Shown here piece by piece: positions 1,223-7,148 of a stretch of 7,148 nt of DNA. Each line of letters begins with the position of its first letter. Positions within the stretch are counted from its first letter, which is position 1. Under the pieces are notes generated by a model. That model was not told where the DNA came from. It made no database searches and saw only the letters and a program-made list of their open reading frames with translations. The translations under genes and the position numbers were made by a program. Origin of the DNA: a bacterium (GTDB taxonomy: Bacteria; Cyanobacteriota; Vampirovibrionia; Obscuribacterales; Obscuribacteraceae); the NCBI GenBank assembly GCA_030431355.1, contig JAUIJG010000280.1:1-7148 (forward strand). The letters run 5' to 3'.

Positions 1223-2293
1223 TTATAGCACCAGAGACAATATTGCTTTCTGGGCATGCAAGCGGTTCTCCGCTTGATCATAAATAACCGACTGGGGCCC
1301 GTCTAAGACCTCGGCGGTCACCTCTTCTCCCCGGTGGGCCGGCAAACAGTGCATAACCAGGGCGTCTTTCTTGGCGAGACTCATAAGCTTCTCATCCACT
1401 TGATACTCTTTGAAGATCATAATTCTTCTCGAGTATTCGTCTTCCTGCCCCATGGAGACCCAGGTGTCGGTATAGATTACATCAGCGTCCCTGGCTGCCT
1501 CCTCTGGAGATTCTCCCACAAAGAGCACCGAACCGTTCTCCTTCGCCGCTTGCTTGGCGGCTTTCATTATGTCGTTCGGCGGGATGTAACCTTCCGGCGT
1601 TGCCAGATAGAAATCCATTCCTACCTTGGTAGCAAGCAACATGAGAGAAGCAGCCACATTGTTACCGTCTCCCACATAGGATATCTTCAGCCCTTTTGGA
1701 TCTTTTCCTTTGTGTTCCACAATGGTCATGTAGTCGGCCAGGGCCTGGCAGGGATGCTCCCGGTCACTGAGACCGTTGATGACTGGAATTTTAGCGTTGT
1801 CAGCCAGCTCCTTGAGAGTCTCATGGTCAAAGACCCTCGCCATGATCCCATCCAACCAACGATCCAGATTCATCGCCACATCGGAGACCGGCTCCCTCTT
1901 ACCGAGCTTGCTCTCCAGATAGATACCGCTTCCACCCAACTGAGTCATGCCTGCTTCAAAAGTAACCCGGGTCCTTAAGGACGGCTTCTCAAAAAGCATC
2001 GCCAGGGTCTGACCTTTGGCAAACAGTGTCTGGGTCTCATCGAACTTATTAGCTTTCAATTTGAGAGCAACATCCAGGATCAAATTCAGCTCCTCTTTGG
2101 ATAACTCCTCAATCCCGAGAATGTCTCGACCCCTCAAAGTGTTCTCTTCCAGGATGTAAGCAATCTCTGATTGGCCCTTAGGGGGAGCCATCCTTTGTGC
2201 GAGAGCCCCCATAATCTTCTCCGAGATCGATAGTTTTTTATTTCCATCTTTGCCGGAAGCAGAAGCCTGGTTGTCGACTAACTTGGGAAACAT
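1223..2293 (-). CDS. argF: Ornithine carbamoyltransferase with N-terminal extension
   Basis: This enzyme condenses carbamoyl phosphate with ornithine to give citrulline in cytosolic arginine biosynthesis. Visible family motifs are the carbamoyl-phosphate loop F-E-K-P-S-L-R-T-R (101-109), H-P-C-Q (180-183), a GDG-N-N-V strand-loop (208-213), D-T-W-V-S-M-G (276-282, the ornithine SMG loop) and H-C-L-P (315-318). Together these separate it from aspartate carbamoyltransferase. The loop reads SLRT rather than the textbook STRT. The catalytic core begins near residue 53 (L-R-G-R-D), so about 50 residues precede it, against a handful in typical enzymes of roughly 300-330 residues. The 356-residue start is well supported by AGGAGA at 2306-2301, 7 nt before the ATG. 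M28 (ATG at 2212) also has an SD-like GGAGA, so a shorter second form is possible. The extension is polar, with lysines, then an amphipathic stretch, and has no clear targeting signal. The gene has its own promoter and a long leader containing a likely attenuator. It is not obviously joined to other arg genes here. Confidence 0.96.
   Translation of the reverse strand: MFPKLVDNQASASGKDGNKKLSISEKIMGALAQRMAPPKGQSEIAYILEENTLRGRDILGIEELSKEELNLILDVALKLKANKFDETQTLFAKGQTLAMLFEKPSLRTRVTFEAGMTQLGGSGIYLESKLGKREPVSDVAMNLDRWLDGIMARVFDHETLKELADNAKIPVINGLSDREHPCQALADYMTIVEHKGKDPKGLKISYVGDGNNVAASLMLLATKVGMDFYLATPEGYIPPNDIMKAAKQAAKENGSVLFVGESPEEAARDADVIYTDTWVSMGQEDEYSRRIMIFKEYQVDEKLMSLAKKDALVMHCLPAHRGEEVTAEVLDGPQSVIYDQAENRLHAQKAILSLVL
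2213..2222 (-). promoter_or_regulatory. Internal SD-like site in argF before Met28
   Basis: GGAGAAGATT immediately precedes the in-frame ATG at 2212. It could initiate a 329-residue form, closer to the usual family length. The same bases encode S-E-K-I, so the match may be coincidental. The upstream SD at 2306-2301 is the stronger one. Confidence 0.3.
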
Positions 2294-2300
2294 TTGAAAT

Positions 2301-2306
2301 TCTCCT
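2301..2306 (-). promoter_or_regulatory. Shine-Dalgarno of argF deciding the long start
   Basis: AGGAGA read on the minus strand sits 7 nt before the ATG at 2293. This supports the long, N-terminally extended form. It lies only about a dozen nucleotides after the T-tracts of the leader hairpin, so terminator folding and ribosome access are physically close. Confidence 0.85.
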
Positions 2307-2311
2307 GGTTG

Positions 2312-2345
2312 AAAAAGTAAAAAAGCCGAGTGGATGACACCCGGG
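2312..2345 (-). terminator. Candidate attenuator (intrinsic terminator) in the argF leader
   Basis: Read on the minus strand, CCGGGTG (2344-2338) pairs with CACTCGG (2332-2326) in a 7-bp GC-rich stem with one G-U pair and a 5-nt loop. It is followed by one C and six T (2324-2319), then AC and five more T (2316-2312). This is a normal intrinsic terminator in form. It lies inside the transcription unit, after the argF promoter and about 25 nt before the argF start, which is the position of an attenuator. No upstream gene needs a terminator here other than the outer-membrane factor, which ends 245 nt earlier and before the argF promoter. Confidence 0.7.
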
Positions 2346-2371
2346 ATAGCTGGAACTGAAGTTCTGGAAAC

Positions 2372-2467
2372 TTAGAGACGTCCAGTAAAAGGACAGGCAA
2401 CACCCCGAGCAGATCTGTTCGAATCGCTTCGTCGTCGGAGATGGAGGCTGTTCAGATAACCGGTCAT
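2372..2467 (-). CDS. Arginine-rich putative leader peptide of argF (31 residues)
   Basis: The ATG at 2467 is preceded by CAGG with a 7-nt spacer and reads 31 codons to TAA (2374-2372). The peptide includes three successive Arg codons, CGA-CGA-CGA (residues 11-13, 2437-2429), then Arg at 18, 21 and 30: six Arg in 31, five of them within residues 11-21. An in-frame ATG at 2494 lies almost exactly at the predicted transcription start, so a leaderless 40-residue version is also possible. The stop codon is 27 nt before the attenuator stem. A short Arg-rich ORF between the promoter and a terminator of an arginine biosynthesis gene is what ribosome-mediated attenuation would need. Arg scarcity would stall the ribosome at codons 11-13. 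The SD is weak and the ORF short, so chance is not excluded. Confidence 0.5.
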   Translation of the reverse strand: MTGYLNSLHLRRRSDSNRSARGVACPFTGRL

Positions 2468-2499
2468 GAAAAAACCTGGTGTGGACTTGGACATGGTTG

Positions 2500-2528
2500 A
2501 AGATAAACCGGTAGCCCCGGCTTGTCAA
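2500..2528 (-). promoter_or_regulatory. Sigma-70-type promoter of argF
   Basis: On the minus strand a perfect -35 hexamer TTGACA (2528-2523) is followed after exactly 17 nt by TATCTT (2505-2500), four of six matches to the -10 consensus. The predicted start is near 2493, giving a leader of about 200 nt before argF. It lies after the end of the outer-membrane factor gene at 2590, so argF can be transcribed independently of the exporter operon. No full ARG-box palindrome was seen. Only a half-site TGAAT occurs at 2540-2544. Confidence 0.75.
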
Positions 2529-2589: not shown

Positions 2590-4233
2590 CTAGAGCTTGA
2601 TAGATAGATCAGAGGTCAGGGAAGCGACCGAAGTGACCCCGAGGTCTCGCACCAACTGCCCCTGGGCAATGTTGTAGTTCACCAGAGCCGTGGCTTTTCT
2701 GATCAAGGCGCTGGTGTAGTCGGATTGGGCTCGCAAGACATCGATGTTCTTGCCCAGCCCATTTTCATAGCGCAGGCGAGCAAGATTGATCTCTTCTTTA
2801 GAAGAATGGAGCCGAATCAAAGCTTCATCAATCTGCCTATCTGCTCGCAACACATTCAGATAAGAGCCTCTAACCTGCCTTACCACCTGATTTACTTCCT
2901 TGGTCAAATTCAAATTTGCCTTTCTCGCCTCATAGCGAGACTTCTGAATAGAAGAGATATCCTTCATTCCCATGCCGTCGAACTTCCAGTTTACGCCAAG
3001 ACCTACCACCAGAAGCGGTTTGATCTGTCGCGAGACACTGCGGCTTACTGGTCCGCTCACGCCCTGGACAGTCACGGTCTTTTTACTGTTTGAGAGGGTC
3101 TCACCGATACCAAATACAGAGGTAGAGAAATTGACATCCGGCTGCAATGGTGCAGCCTTCTTTACTATCTCTTTGCGAGCGGCGAGACGTAGCTCTTCTT
3201 TGAGTTTTAGCTCCGGTCTGGTACTGAGCGCTTTGACAAGAAGTCCCTGCACTCTGCTCTTCTGACTTACCAACTCTTTTTTCTTAAGTTCCAGATCTTC
3301 GGGAAGCAGGTCGAGGTCTTGCTCGACATTTAGAAACTCAGCCAGTTCTATGGCTGACTGACGCCTGTCAATCTGTTGGTCTATCAACTTCTGACGATCC
3401 GACGAGAGCTGAGTTCGAGCCTGCATAACATCCAACCTGGTGGCCGAGCCGGCATCGAATCGAGCACCGGTAATCTTGAGATTCTCCTCTGAGACCTTTA
3501 CCGCCTGAATACGAATTCTCAATACCGATTCAGACAGAATTAGTTTGTAGTATTTTTCATATGCACCGGTGAGGACATCATTTACGGTGGCATCCTTTTT
3601 GTGACCGCTGGCACGGTAGTTGTTACGCGCCTGCAAAGCTCCAAAAACGGTTCTTCCACCACGATAGAGTCCGTAGTTAATACCGGCGCTGGTTAAGATG
3701 AACGGATTGTTGAATCGAATACCTTCCGGGCTTGCTATGGGTAAATTTAGAGCACCATTTAAATAGTTGTAGTTGTAGGCAAGACTCGCCGAGGGAAGAA
3801 ATCCTGATAAAGCTTTTCGATAATCCCATTTGGAAGCGGTCTTCTCTGTATCGGCAATTCCTATATCAAGATTTCTCTCAATAGCGGTGTAGAGTACGTC
3901 TTTAAGAGAGACCGGTTTGGGGGTCTGTGCATCCAGGTTGAAAGGATTAAGGCTCTTGTCTATGGTGACAAGACCATTTAATTCCGGTCTCTTTAATTTA
4001 ATCGCTTTAGGGTCAAAAACATTGATCTCATCAGCCAACTTTCTCTCTTCGATGTTTTCACCGGCGTCGCCACCGCCGATTGGCTGTCTGAGCTTGAGAG
4101 TATCATCCTCCGGAGCACACCAGCAAGGAGAAGCCAGAATTAAGCTCAGGCAAAAGAAGATACTGCCTGTGACCAGGACAAGCAAAAGTCTATTCTTACT
4201 ATTTTGTTTTACTAGTTTTGTTAGGATTCGCAT
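2590..4233 (-). CDS. TolC-family outer-membrane efflux protein
   Basis: This is the probable outer-membrane exit duct of the exporter encoded just upstream. From the chosen start it is 547 residues. It has a basic N-terminus and a hydrophobic core (about 16-34) ending in a C-W-C-A stretch that looks like a signal-peptidase I site near residue 40. A polar linker of about 65 residues follows, then two outer-membrane efflux repeats (about 109-300 and 328-533). Typical helical-barrel repeat features are R-F-D-A-G-S-A-T-R-L-D-V near 258-269 and R-Y-E-N-G-L-G-K-N-I-D-V near 488-499. The reading frame stays open 33 codons further upstream, to an ATG at 4332. That start lacks an SD, would overlap the permease gene by 85 bp and would bury the signal peptide. 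The ATG at 4233 lies 14 nt after the permease stop, with AGAGG overlapping that stop, at a slightly long 11-nt spacing. The protein is longer than many family members because of the linker. The substrate is unknown. Confidence 0.92.
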   Translation of the reverse strand: MRILTKLVKQNSKNRLLLVLVTGSIFFCLSLILASPCWCAPEDDTLKLRQPIGGGDAGENIEERKLADEINVFDPKAIKLKRPELNGLVTIDKSLNPFNLDAQTPKPVSLKDVLYTAIERNLDIGIADTEKTASKWDYRKALSGFLPSASLAYNYNYLNGALNLPIASPEGIRFNNPFILTSAGINYGLYRGGRTVFGALQARNNYRASGHKKDATVNDVLTGAYEKYYKLILSESVLRIRIQAVKVSEENLKITGARFDAGSATRLDVMQARTQLSSDRQKLIDQQIDRRQSAIELAEFLNVEQDLDLLPEDLELKKKELVSQKSRVQGLLVKALSTRPELKLKEELRLAARKEIVKKAAPLQPDVNFSTSVFGIGETLSNSKKTVTVQGVSGPVSRSVSRQIKPLLVVGLGVNWKFDGMGMKDISSIQKSRYEARKANLNLTKEVNQVVRQVRGSYLNVLRADRQIDEALIRLHSSKEEINLARLRYENGLGKNIDVLRAQSDYTSALIRKATALVNYNIAQGQLVRDLGVTSVASLTSDLSIKL

Positions 4234-4247
4234 GGGATTCGATGCCT

Positions 4248-5366
4248 CTATTGAAGCTGTTTTCTGAAATTGCTCGCGCTCAGAGATATGAGAGCTATGG
4301 CAAAAACTGCAAGGATTAAAACTTCGGACCATATAATTTCAAGACCTACCCCTCGAAGGAGCAGGGCTCTGAGAGCGCTGACATAGTAGCGAAGCGGGTC
4401 GAAATTTGAGAGAAACTGAAACAACGCCGGCATACTCTCCACAGGGGATAGCGCACCGGATAGCTGAATCAGAGGGATATTGATAAAAAATGATGTGAGA
4501 ATAGCCTGGGTCTGATTGCCGGAATAAGTAGCAAGAGCCATTCCGATAGACATGGAGACAAAAATCGCCATGACAGAAACGAGTAGAACAAGGGCAAGAG
4601 AGCCCCGAACAGGAACATGAAATACGGCGGTGGCTATGATCAAACTCAAGCTGAGGCTTCCCATCAATAGCACCAGAAGCGGGATGATTTTGGCAATCAG
4701 GATGTCCGTCGAACTTGCCGGAGTCATAAGCAGTTGCTCGACAGTCCCCTTGTCCTTCTCCCGAATAACCGAAATAGAAGAGACCAGGGTGCCTGCAATC
4801 ACTACCACAATGCCGATCACGCCGGGCACAAAGAACCAGGAGCTGATAAGACCGGGATTGTAAGCGAAAGAGACCTGGGGATAAACCGGCAAATCTTTGC
4901 TGGATAATCCCTTCAGGTTCAGATTTAGATCGCTTACAATCTGAGTGATATAACCCTGGGCTATGCCGGCAGTGTTGGCATCGACTCCATCAATCAGAAA
5001 CTGAAGGCTGACAGGCTCTCCTCGTTTGAGTGCCCTCTGTGCGTCGGGAAGAATGACCAGTCCCACGTCTGTTTTACCATCTGCCACCATCTCGTTCAGC
5101 TCTTTCTGGCTGGATACTCTCCCGTGAATATCAAAGATCTGACTGTTCAAAAGGGCTGATACCACATCACGGCTGATGGGAGAGTTTGACGTATCCAGCA
5201 CGGTTAGGCGCAAATGTTCTACTTCGGGACTGAGGGCGAATCCGTAAAGCATCAACTGTAGTACCGGAGGAACCACAAGTAAAACCAGAGTTTGTCGATC
5301 CCGAAGTATCTGTCGAAACTCCTTGGATGCGAGGGCTTTGAAGGCGCTGAGGTTGACGTTGAACAT
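4248..5366 (-). CDS. ABC-2 type transporter permease (second of pair, YbhR-like)
   Basis: This inner-membrane permease subunit has 372 residues, the usual size for the ABC-2 family with a large periplasmic insert. One membrane segment (about 26-44) follows a basic R-Q-I-L-R-D-R start. An extracytoplasmic domain (about 45-175) comes next, then five segments near 178-199, 224-248, 255-279, 288-306 and 346-363. Conserved features are N-P-G before segment 2, the R-E-K-D-K-G-T loop (202-208), which probably contacts the ATPase, and S-G-x-x-S-P-V-E near 303-310. The overall pattern resembles E. coli YbhR from memory. The ATG is 4 nt after the stop of the preceding permease, with GGAGG inside that gene's last codons, so translation is likely coupled. 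It presumably forms a heterodimer with the neighbouring permease. Confidence 0.93.
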   Translation of the reverse strand: MFNVNLSAFKALASKEFRQILRDRQTLVLLVVPPVLQLMLYGFALSPEVEHLRLTVLDTSNSPISRDVVSALLNSQIFDIHGRVSSQKELNEMVADGKTDVGLVILPDAQRALKRGEPVSLQFLIDGVDANTAGIAQGYITQIVSDLNLNLKGLSSKDLPVYPQVSFAYNPGLISSWFFVPGVIGIVVVIAGTLVSSISVIREKDKGTVEQLLMTPASSTDILIAKIIPLLVLLMGSLSLSLIIATAVFHVPVRGSLALVLLVSVMAIFVSMSIGMALATYSGNQTQAILTSFFINIPLIQLSGALSPVESMPALFQFLSNFDPLRYYVSALRALLLRGVGLEIIWSEVLILAVFAIALISLSASNFRKQLQ

Positions 5367-5370
5367 AGCC

Positions 5371-6474
5371 TCAAGCCTCCAAACGCATACGGGAAAGAAG
5401 CCTGGTACTCAGTCGATAGAGAATCAGATTTCCCAGAACAAGCGCCAAAGGAATATATAGATGGCTATGCCATTCGGAGCCACGAACAAAGGCATCCCTG
5501 CAACCTTCTATAAAATACCTTGCCGGAACGATATTGGAAATTAGTGATAGAGGATAAACAATATTTCGAATCGGGTAGATGAAGCCTGAAAGGAGAAGAG
5601 CGGTGGTAAATCCTACGGTGGCCACAATCTGAACCCCTGCCGTCTGTGTGTTAGCCCGGGAACCGGCAAGCAGGCCGAAGTTGACGCTACAGCCCAGGAA
5701 AAGTAAGAGATTCAACAGAAAAACAGGGAGACTGCCTCTAAGGCTGATTCCAAACACAAGAGCGGAAATAGAGAGAACCACTGCCGCTTCCAGAAGACCA
5801 ACCAGGGTATATGCCATCAACTTACCACCGAGGAACTCATATGGTGTCATGCTAGAAGCGAAAACTTGCAAGATGGTGCCATGCTCTTTTTCTCTGCTTA
5901 CCGAAATGGAAGCAAGCAGAGAGGGAAAGATCCACATGACAAAGGCAATGGTGCCCGGCACTATGTATAGTGCTTCTTCTCTTCCTGGATTAAACCAGAG
6001 TCTGATCTCCGGAACCAGAGGTCCTCGATTTTGAAAAAGACCCTGGGACTCAAGAAAAAAAGTATTCGAACCGACCAGGATGTTTTGCACGACCCGGGCA
6101 TTGTTAACATCGGTAGCATCCACCACCGCCTGAACATTCACGGACTCGCCTCTTCTCAAATCCCGGGAGAACTCAGGAGGAATTACCAGAGAAGCCCTGG
6201 CCTTACCCCGGTCGAGGGGGCTGTAAGGCTCACTGCCCTGAAAGCTGCTTGGAATCAACTGCCTGGTGGCAAAGATTCTCTCCACATAATCGCGACTGGC
6301 CTTGCCCGCGTCAAAATTGATTATCGCCACGGGAAGGTCTTTCACTTCCAGCCTGGTACCGAAGCCGAAGAGAAAGAGAGTGATAACAGGGAGCAAGAAC
6401 GCCAGCCCGACGGAGATTCTGTCTCTTCTAAACTGGGCAAGCTCTTTTCGGCACTGGGAGAAGACTCGGATCAT
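5371..6474 (-). CDS. ABC-2 type transporter permease (first of pair, YbhS-like)
   Basis: This 367-residue inner-membrane permease has the same architecture as its downstream neighbour. It has a basic cytoplasmic N-terminus, one segment (about 20-38), a periplasmic domain (about 40-165) and further segments near 169-191, 219-243, 249-270, 283-300 and 339-356. S-R-E-K-E-H-G-T (193-200) is the conserved coupling-loop motif after segment 2, and S-G-F-I-Y-P-I-R (296-303) is the conserved loop after segment 5. The start is well defined: GGAGG (6487-6483) sits 8 nt before the ATG, which overlaps the ATPase stop as ATGA. The two permeases share layout but are clearly divergent, so they are more likely ancient paralogues forming a heterodimer than a recent duplication. 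The substrate is unknown. Members of this group are associated with drug and cation export in E. coli, but that should not be transferred without evidence. Confidence 0.93.
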   Translation of the reverse strand: MIRVFSQCRKELAQFRRDRISVGLAFLLPVITLFLFGFGTRLEVKDLPVAIINFDAGKASRDYVERIFATRQLIPSSFQGSEPYSPLDRGKARASLVIPPEFSRDLRRGESVNVQAVVDATDVNNARVVQNILVGSNTFFLESQGLFQNRGPLVPEIRLWFNPGREEALYIVPGTIAFVMWIFPSLLASISVSREKEHGTILQVFASSMTPYEFLGGKLMAYTLVGLLEAAVVLSISALVFGISLRGSLPVFLLNLLLFLGCSVNFGLLAGSRANTQTAGVQIVATVGFTTALLLSGFIYPIRNIVYPLSLISNIVPARYFIEGCRDAFVRGSEWHSHLYIPLALVLGNLILYRLSTRLLSRMRLEA

Positions 6475-7148
6475 GATGCCTTCCTCCGAGCCGCCGCTTC
6501 CATCCTCTGAACGATGCCGATGAAAGAATCTTCTAAAGAGAACGGCACCTGGCGAATCGAAAGAACATCGATGCCTACCTCTTGCAAGTTGCCTAGAAGC
6601 TCTTCTCTATTGTCTTCCTCGGTAATCACCAGGTGAATTCGATCGGCAAAAATTGATACCTGCCAATCTTCTACTCTCTCTCTCAAAATCTTGACTGCAC
6701 TTTGCGAATCAGAGACCTTCAATTCCAGGAGCAAACCCGGCTGCTGAGACTTGATCTCCAATGGAGATCCCCTGGCGACGATCTCACCGGCAACCATAAA
6801 AGCAAGGTTGTTGCAATGCTCGGCCTCCTCAAGAAAATGAGTGGTGACCAATATCGCAGTCCCTTTGGCGGCCAGTTGACGGATCAGTTTCCAGAGCTGT
6901 CTTCTGGCTAAAGGGTCGACACCGGAGGTCGGTTCATCGAGAAAGAGAACATCCGGCTCATGCATAACACAGGCACCAAAAGCCAATCTTTGCTTCCAGC
7001 CACCAGGAAGTTTACCGGTAATCAGGTTCTCCTGACCGGCCAAACCGCAGCTATTAAGAGCCCAGGCTATGCGGGCCGGTCTCAGTGAATCTTCTATGCC
7101 GTAGACGCGACAATAAAATTTGAGATTCTCTGAGATGGTCAGATCATC
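6471..7148 (-). CDS. ABC transporter ATP-binding protein, C-terminal 225 residues (5' end outside window)
   Basis: This is the nucleotide-binding subunit powering the two permeases. The frame is open to the window edge, so the start and the Walker A motif lie beyond 7148. In the visible part the order is: D-D-L-T-I-S-E-N-L (1-9, the helical-domain stretch after the Q-loop), a signature motif L-P-G-G-W-K-Q-R (47-54) in place of canonical LSGGQ, Walker B V-L-F-L-D-E-P (67-73) with catalytic Glu72, the D-loop S-G-V-D (75-78) and the switch His at 104 (T-T-H-F). A C-terminal domain of about 90 residues follows, as in drug-type ABC ATPases. The L-P-x-G-W-K-Q-R signature fits the YbhF/YhiH/RbbA group as I remember it. 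Some members of that group carry two nucleotide-binding domains, and this could be the second half of such a protein. A TTG at 7043 is in frame but would delete conserved sequence, so it is not the start. The stop overlaps the permease start by ATGA. Confidence 0.95.
   Translation of the reverse strand, partial: DDLTISENLKFYCRVYGIEDSLRPARIAWALNSCGLAGQENLITGKLPGGWKQRLAFGACVMHEPDVLFLDEPTSGVDPLARRQLWKLIRQLAAKGTAILVTTHFLEEAEHCNNLAFMVAGEIVARGSPLEIKSQQPGLLLELKVSDSQSAVKILRERVEDWQVSIFADRIHLVITEEDNREELLGNLQEVGIDVLSIRQVPFSLEDSFIGIVQRMEAAARRKAS

Follow-up and report, generated by a model that had tools for sequence, protein, structure and literature searches.

The window, that is, the whole of the 7,148-nucleotide stretch of DNA which was analysed, carries on its minus strand an argF gene and, 5' of that gene, a short leader. 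Found on the same strand and further 5' (2590-7148) are genes for a TolC-like outer membrane efflux protein (PF02321), two ABC-2 permeases, and an ABC ATPase which is DrrA/RbbA-like, a set that may be described as a putative export operon. On the plus strand, at 94-855, is an open reading frame (ORF) of 253 amino acids that matches no NCBIfam or Pfam model, and downstream of which a long hairpin with a T-run is seen by eye at approximately 879-909. The elements of the leader along with argF itself, in 5' to 3' order, are as follows:

2500 to 2528, minus strand: promoter-like site, TTGACA-17-TATCTT (10/12 matches), with its -35 at 2528-2523 and its -10 at 2505-2500
2372 to 2467, minus strand: leader peptide ORF of 31 codons, MTGYLNSLHLRRRSDSNRSARGVACPFTGRL, with ATG at 2467 and stop codon at 2374-2372, as read from the sequence
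2429 to 2437, minus strand: putative control codons, CGA-CGA-CGA, as read from the sequence and as paralleled by CGN runs in relatives
2401 to 2411, minus strand: region 2, the 5' strand of the predicted antiterminator, TGCTCGGGGTG, from its complementarity to region 3
2338 to 2348, minus strand: region 3, TATCCCGGGTG, which by complementarity can pair with region 2 (antiterminator) or, over 2344-2338, with region 4 (terminator)
2326 to 2344, minus strand: terminator hairpin (regions 3 and 4), CCGGGTG-TCATC-CACTCGG, seven pairs including one G-U, from sequence and fold
2312 to 2324, minus strand: terminator U-tract, consisting of T6 (2324-2319), AC, and T5 (2316-2312), from the sequence
2302 to 2306, minus strand: AGGAG preceding the argF ATG (2293), from the sequence
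1223 to 2293, minus strand: argF, ornithine carbamoyltransferase of 356 amino acids, the presumed regulated gene (TIGR00658, 391.9 bits against a cut-off of 280.85)

An initial annotation of this DNA had described the TTGACA-17-TATCTT promoter, the short ORF with its CGA-CGA-CGA and six Arg in 31 codons, and the 7-bp hairpin followed by runs of six and then five T's, all of which are indeed present. It had placed the argF start about 25 nt away, which on measurement is instead 32 nt from the hairpin end and 18 nt from the T-tracts. The antiterminator segment at 2411-2401 was absent from that annotation and is added here. The promoter-like site is the best among ten such sites in the window, with 6.5 expected based on shuffles. 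An AGG (2477-2475) is found 7 nt 5' of the leader ORF's ATG, and were translation to begin instead at the in-frame ATG at 2494, the peptide would be 9 residues longer, with 40 amino acids in total.

Region 3 is thus shared by two mutually exclusive pairings. Regions 2 and 3 can form 11 continuous pairs, ungapped, of which five are G-U, and the leader segment, taken without the 3' arm of the terminator, adopts a fold of -24.7 kcal/mol that contains this pairing. The 41 nt which include the terminator hairpin fold at -11.3 kcal/mol, the weakest among 18 argF leaders, i.e., that of the window plus 17 from relatives. The whole of the window's leader is not exceptionally stable on folding (z = +1.24), as is to be expected of a switch. 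Searches with Rfam, i.e., for a T-box or other leader, gave zero matches in the window up to E = 1 and zero matches at the gathering score in six leader loci.

From the end of the CGA run to region 2 there are 17 nt. Two of the six Arg codons, AGA at 2416-2414 and CGG at 2407-2405, are so positioned that a ribosome stalled upon them would mask region 2, and therefore it is the CGA run which should be the window's sensor.

The reading that is preferred here, with a probability of roughly 0.84, is that the leader represents a ribosome-mediated (his/trp-type) transcription attenuator which senses charged tRNA-Arg. This reading, which as made from sequence was also that of the initial annotation, is supported by recurrence of the layout along with stem covariation in relatives. 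What we infer, that is, is that the leader ORF is translated, that ribosomes can stall within it, that transcription can terminate ahead of argF, and that the outcome responds to arginine. Transcription from the promoter would give rise to a leader RNA, with the short ORF translated behind the RNA polymerase. Given plentiful arginine, the ribosome would clear the CGA codons, reaching or passing region 2, so that the 3:4 terminator may form and argF would be off. Given scarce arginine, the ribosome would instead stall at the CGA run, regions 2 and 3 would pair, the terminator would be blocked, and the polymerase would continue on into argF.

For comparison, 53 genomes were considered that belong to the same order as G001, an Obscuribacterales MAG in which L001 is found, and among these 28 argF loci were read upstream; left out were one partial gene (L112, of G029) and a fragment of 25 residues where a G045 contig begins. 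The initial annotation had reckoned with relatives that keep argF but without an Arg-rich ORF or hairpin. Mostly the contrary is seen: by eye, 17 of the 28 loci possess an Arg-run leader ORF, alternative hairpins, and a U-tract, while 11 do not display this layout. Seven of the latter are in genomes with ArgR and four are in genomes where argF has neither (L081, L107, L110, L111), though the genomes of three of those four have an Arg leader before another arginine gene. The layout in relatives consists of an Arg-run ORF, then a GAACYCGGGG-like region 2, then a spacer, and then a terminator, the 5' arm of which complements region 2. Examples of these leaders are MHTAMPVITTAANRRRREFSPNPGHRLA (L106), MLKTVNTVSRRRREFN (L082), and MTFANYTSNNRRTRRVHTNSGPAGLR (L094).

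Leaders vary in their details. In L096, L082, and L083, regions 2 and 3 pair without a break over 6 bp at most, and over more with a bulge in the latter two. In 15 of the 18 leaders the stop codon is found 13-18 nt past region 2, with that of the window 29 nt past it and those of L082 and L083 just 5' of it. A GTTC-loop-GAAC hairpin immediately following the Arg run, whose 3' arm forms the beginning of region 2, is similarly present in 15 of 18, with the window, L100, and L109 the leaders from which it is absent. By a lenient search, one without a chance rate, 16 of the 18 leaders show a TTGACA-like site along with a -10-like hexamer 5' of the run, that -10 ending 33-93 nt upstream of the run. 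The two leaders without a promoter match, L102 and L103, have just approximately 30 nt of sequence 5' of the run. In all 17 of the argF-leader genomes argG is found directly 3' of argF, and in those genomes the argF leader would therefore cover both genes. The window differs, as within the 1.2 kb available there is no long ORF 3' of argF on its strand and no argG-like follower.

Among the checks which the initial annotation had proposed was a search for Arg runs that are retained despite synonymous changes, and such changes are what is found. Runs of CGN codons are present in all 17 of the relatives' argF leaders (RRTRR in five), and across the full set of 18, which includes the window, control codons one and two end in A, C, or T. 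The CG at codon bases one and two, as well as the absence of AGA and AGG from argF leaders, are by contrast consequences of the CGN pattern used in searching. Leaders preceding other arginine genes were found using a covariance model (described below) rather than chosen by that CGN pattern, and all 35 of these have at least three Arg within 12 codons in the model's frame, versus 2/35 and 0/35 in the other frames. Near the runs of these 35 non-argF leaders (L135-L161), CGC plus CGA account for 140 of 153 Arg codons, versus 141 of 335 in argF genes. That bias, as possibly reflecting choice of tRNA, is only suggestive because the model favours CG columns.

The second proposed check, for compensatory change, is likewise borne out, with both hairpins remaining paired via two-sided changes. 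In 15 leaders, window not included, the terminator helix has 100% of its cells paired and two-sided changes at 3 of 8 pairs, and for the antiterminator the corresponding figures are 94% and 2 of 9; in slid registers at most 70% (terminator) and 68% (antiterminator) are paired. The covariation score is reached in 0/500 shuffles for the terminator and also in 0/500 for the antiterminator. The number of two-sided pairs is not beyond shuffles, being reached by 278/500 (terminator) and 155/500 (antiterminator), nor are further pair types, which are reached by 500/500 and 141/500, respectively. One core column changes in concert in all three regions, with regions 2 and 4 each going from C to T and region 3 from G to A, as seen on comparing leaders of the L105 type with those of the L094 type. 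Re-pairing of 2:3 rows was as good in 152/20000 trials, a test for which regions 2 and 3 were anchored by hand in 16 rows (10 of them distinct), with the window included and L082 and L083 left out due to their bulge.

A MAFFT alignment that included the window misaligned the terminator, and consequently a covariance model, R1, was built from 15 argF leaders, i.e., without the window, L102, or L104. Run on the 53 genomes, R1 gave 87 matches at E up to 0.5. The best 45 of these (36.6 bits and up) consist of 17 argF leaders, 15 of which were used in training, 26 leaders preceding argC, argJ, argB, or argG, none of which were, and two contig ends. Among the best 52 of the 87, 48 precede arginine genes, two are at contig ends, and two are neither. 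Seven of the other 35 were inspected, of which one precedes argJ and six are neither, while further inspection of R1 matches revealed three more preceding argJ; below 33 bits, true matches and chance matches overlap. For 46 of the R1 matches the downstream gene was determined, with 36 found to precede arginine genes (14 argC, 15 argJ, 4 argB, 2 argG, and 1 argF, the last being one of the argF leaders previously read), two at contig ends, and eight, all at 32.8 bits or less, before none of these genes. Representative downstream genes were identified by curated models: argC by TIGR01850, argJ by TIGR00120, argB by TIGR00761, and argG by TIGR00032. Leader peptides thus found include those beginning MQLRQAQQVISRRRPGL (argC) and MQFSKSLTHNRRFPRRRANALGD (argJ), and in total 28 of the 53 genomes have at least one Arg leader preceding an arginine gene. 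In G047 an Arg leader precedes every gene of two argC-argJ pairs (L157, L158) that are found on separate contigs of the one assembly, which would represent either a duplication or mixed strains.

Outside of the order, no Arg leader was seen by eye among 13 inspected R1 matches. Twelve of these are from 11 of the 18 matched non-order genomes of a class scan (194 genomes) and the other is from G294, of a phylum scan (292 genomes), both samples including members of the order. These are generic terminators, with one exception, L168 (G064), where on the reverse strand, around the R1 match, an Ile/Val-rich leader ORF, MLSRSIIILTVVVLVLIGSTG, precedes a terminator; by eye, the region of that terminator's 5' arm complements an upstream GGGGTGATT. 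From its sequence, that element looks like an attenuator found outside of the order.

The window itself yields no R1 match up to E = 10 using default filters. With filters off, R1 places it correctly at 3.6 bits (E of 0.12 for 451 bases). The window's copy may thus be either a fast-changing homologue or instead an example of this design that arose independently. Its ArgF forms a long, unplaced branch on an ArgF tree; that protein is 99% identical to one other protein, 72-80% identical to three closer relatives (P0002-P0004; 67-80% over P0002-P0008), and, among relatives with a named source, 64-65% identical to proteins of Candidatus Obscuribacterales and 66-67% identical to those of Capsulimonadaceae. 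The window's ArgF possesses an N-terminal extension of approximately 55 residues with an AQRMAPPKG motif (2293-2129, minus strand), the QRM of which is visible in at least 21 of the order's 28 argF loci, so that the window's organism likely belongs near Obscuribacterales (Cyanobacteriota/Melainabacteria group). Many of the ornithine carbamoyltransferases of 410-620 amino acids among the ArgF relatives listed are fusions that also include a Clp N-terminal domain (PF02861), and three have PF00437 besides.

An Arg-rich leader ORF need not act through attenuation. In the Salmonella speF leader, as described in the pertinent sections of PMC6386406, it is Arg codons of a leader ORF, orf34, which sense arginine, with Rho-dependent termination, translation, and RNase G decay affected. 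By analogy, the leader ORF of the window could operate via its nascent peptide or via translation generally, that is, via Rho access or RNA decay. That would leave unaccounted for the classical terminator with U-tract and the covarying antiterminator which are found 3' of the ORF. In addition, leader peptides across argC, argJ, argB, argG, and argF by eye share little besides their Arg runs, a poor fit with peptide-specific stalling, and this alternative is improbable. The window's peptide was considered as a possible orf34 (DUF2618) itself, an identity rejected because by reading it does not have the HIRRT..HIMM core described for that family, as the source presents it, and because the gene which follows is argF.

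It might be asked instead whether the window's elements have come together simply by chance, i.e., as an ordinary terminator beside a GC-rich stretch which happens to read as Arg codons. When the upstream region undergoes dinucleotide shuffling, an Arg cluster within a short ORF is seen by itself in 281/4000 cases, making the ORF taken alone weak evidence, and the window has many terminator-like sites (13 versus an expected 7.2); R1's low score for the window points in the same direction. Jointly, however, ORF, terminator, and antiterminator occur in 0/4000 shuffles and, as background, in 3 of 2122 overlapping 323-nt stretches (two sites) from 30 control loci; the full layout was found in none of 30 pyrB upstream regions serving as controls. 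As the thresholds of the scanner employed were chosen after leaders had been seen, these chance tests carry less weight than does the comparative evidence, i.e., that the same gene shows the same layout in a majority of the argF loci read among relatives. Chance combination is about as improbable.

That same scanner in its strict form passes the window's copy. Twelve of the order's 28 argF loci pass for Arg versus five or fewer for any other amino acid, the five passes for Ala being probably a shifted frame of CGC runs. Five of the 17 relatives positive by eye are missed. Before a separate set of 80 argF loci it gave no pass for any amino acid, but that set includes L002 and L073, from the genomes of L083 and L082, which are positive by eye, so a scanner this strict cannot serve to exclude leaders in other lineages.

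The usual account of arginine synthesis is one of repression by ArgR, a DNA-binding protein which, acting at ARG boxes, likewise controls arginine synthesis genes but does so unlike an attenuator. Within the order, ArgR (PF01316) was found in 8 of 53 genomes, though MAGs may be incomplete. Of the 31 argG-containing genomes, an Arg leader precedes some arginine gene in 25, ArgR is found in eight (four have both), and two have neither. The four with both are G036, G037, and G038, where the leader precedes argB, and G050, where it precedes argJ. In two ArgR genomes (L093, L091) argF is preceded by a terminator-like R1 match without an Arg ORF, of 13.4 and 5.9 bits. In G032 (L273) there is one cluster, led by argR, in the order argR, argG, argF, argC, argJ, argB, with argH probably, by eye, in the 1.4-kb gap between argG and argF.

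ArgR and the argF leader are seen apart. A Fisher test comparing ArgR in 0/17 argF-leader genomes versus 7/12 others gives a p of 0.0005, which is not a true probability since the labels 'leader' and 'ArgR' each require just two changes on the ArgF tree, meaning that few events are seen; the label 'neither' requires four. Exclusion at the level of genomes is weaker (p of 0.026), as based on lists compiled by hand and given the four ArgR genomes with a leader elsewhere. That argF in the window's organism is under ArgR, with its leader a relic or a secondary control, is the least probable of these alternatives, by a small margin. Half of the ArgR genomes do show that coexistence with an Arg leader is possible, before argB or argJ, but no argF-leader genome has a detected ArgR, none of the seven ArgR genomes with argF has by eye an argF leader, and in G032 argR itself stands before argG, argF, argC, argJ, and argB.

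Attenuation of the trp/his type, as preferred here for the window, is a known mechanism. As in those systems, the leader ORF contains codons for the amino acid which the pathway makes and is accompanied by a 2:3 antiterminator and a 3:4 terminator with U-tract, and in most of the relatives, though not in the window, there is also a hairpin overlapping region 2 along with a stop codon just past region 2. The differences are of amino acid, here arginine, of pathway, and of lineage. Leader-peptide systems were known just from Proteobacteria and Actinobacteria until Firmicutes were added in 2010, according to the relevant portion of PMC2965389. For arginine operons of Actinobacteria, the sections of PMC1262725 on these genes report no RNA element, and assign arginine elsewhere to T-boxes. 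A paper on attenuator theory (PMC1183508) mentions, in the portion bearing on this point, selective charging of Arg isoacceptors and names there no arginine operon.

Other systems overlap with this one in part. Salmonella speF, like the leaders here, uses consecutive Arg codons of a leader ORF to sense arginine, and the experiments presented in that portion of PMC6386406 indicate that rare or frequent Arg codons both work. It controls instead an ornithine decarboxylase, via Rho, translation, and RNase G, and the authors saw no rho-independent terminator in that leader. Firmicutes His-leader attenuators, as treated in the corresponding part of PMC9413887, are similar in that lineages without HisR and His T-boxes have attenuators before the same genes, but those involve histidine and the his operon rather than arginine and up to five separate genes. 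The carA of Pseudomonas aeruginosa, as cited in a passage of PMC4997734, is also similar, having a leader peptide, possible attenuation, and a gene shared between arginine and pyrimidines, but there the arginine control is at transcription and it is the pyrimidine control which is possibly attenuation.

In the open-licence PMC literature, outside of which most subscription literature falls, no Arg-codon attenuator of arginine synthesis genes was found described, nor in open-licence literature was leader-peptide control found described for the Cyanobacteriota/Melainabacteria group. The mechanism, that is, is already known, while its use for this amino acid, in this pathway, and in this lineage was not found described. 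For the order as a whole, it is rather likely that a dispersed Arg-codon attenuator regulon, consisting of argC, argJ, argB, argG, and argF, has largely taken over from ArgR within this one Cyanobacteriota/Melainabacteria order, and that this represents a first arginine-synthesis attenuation regulon. If so, then arginine synthesis would join those pathways which are under ribosome-stalling control, one regulatory logic would have been replaced by another within a single order, and the leaders would serve as readable sensors of arginine supply in uncultured bacteria.
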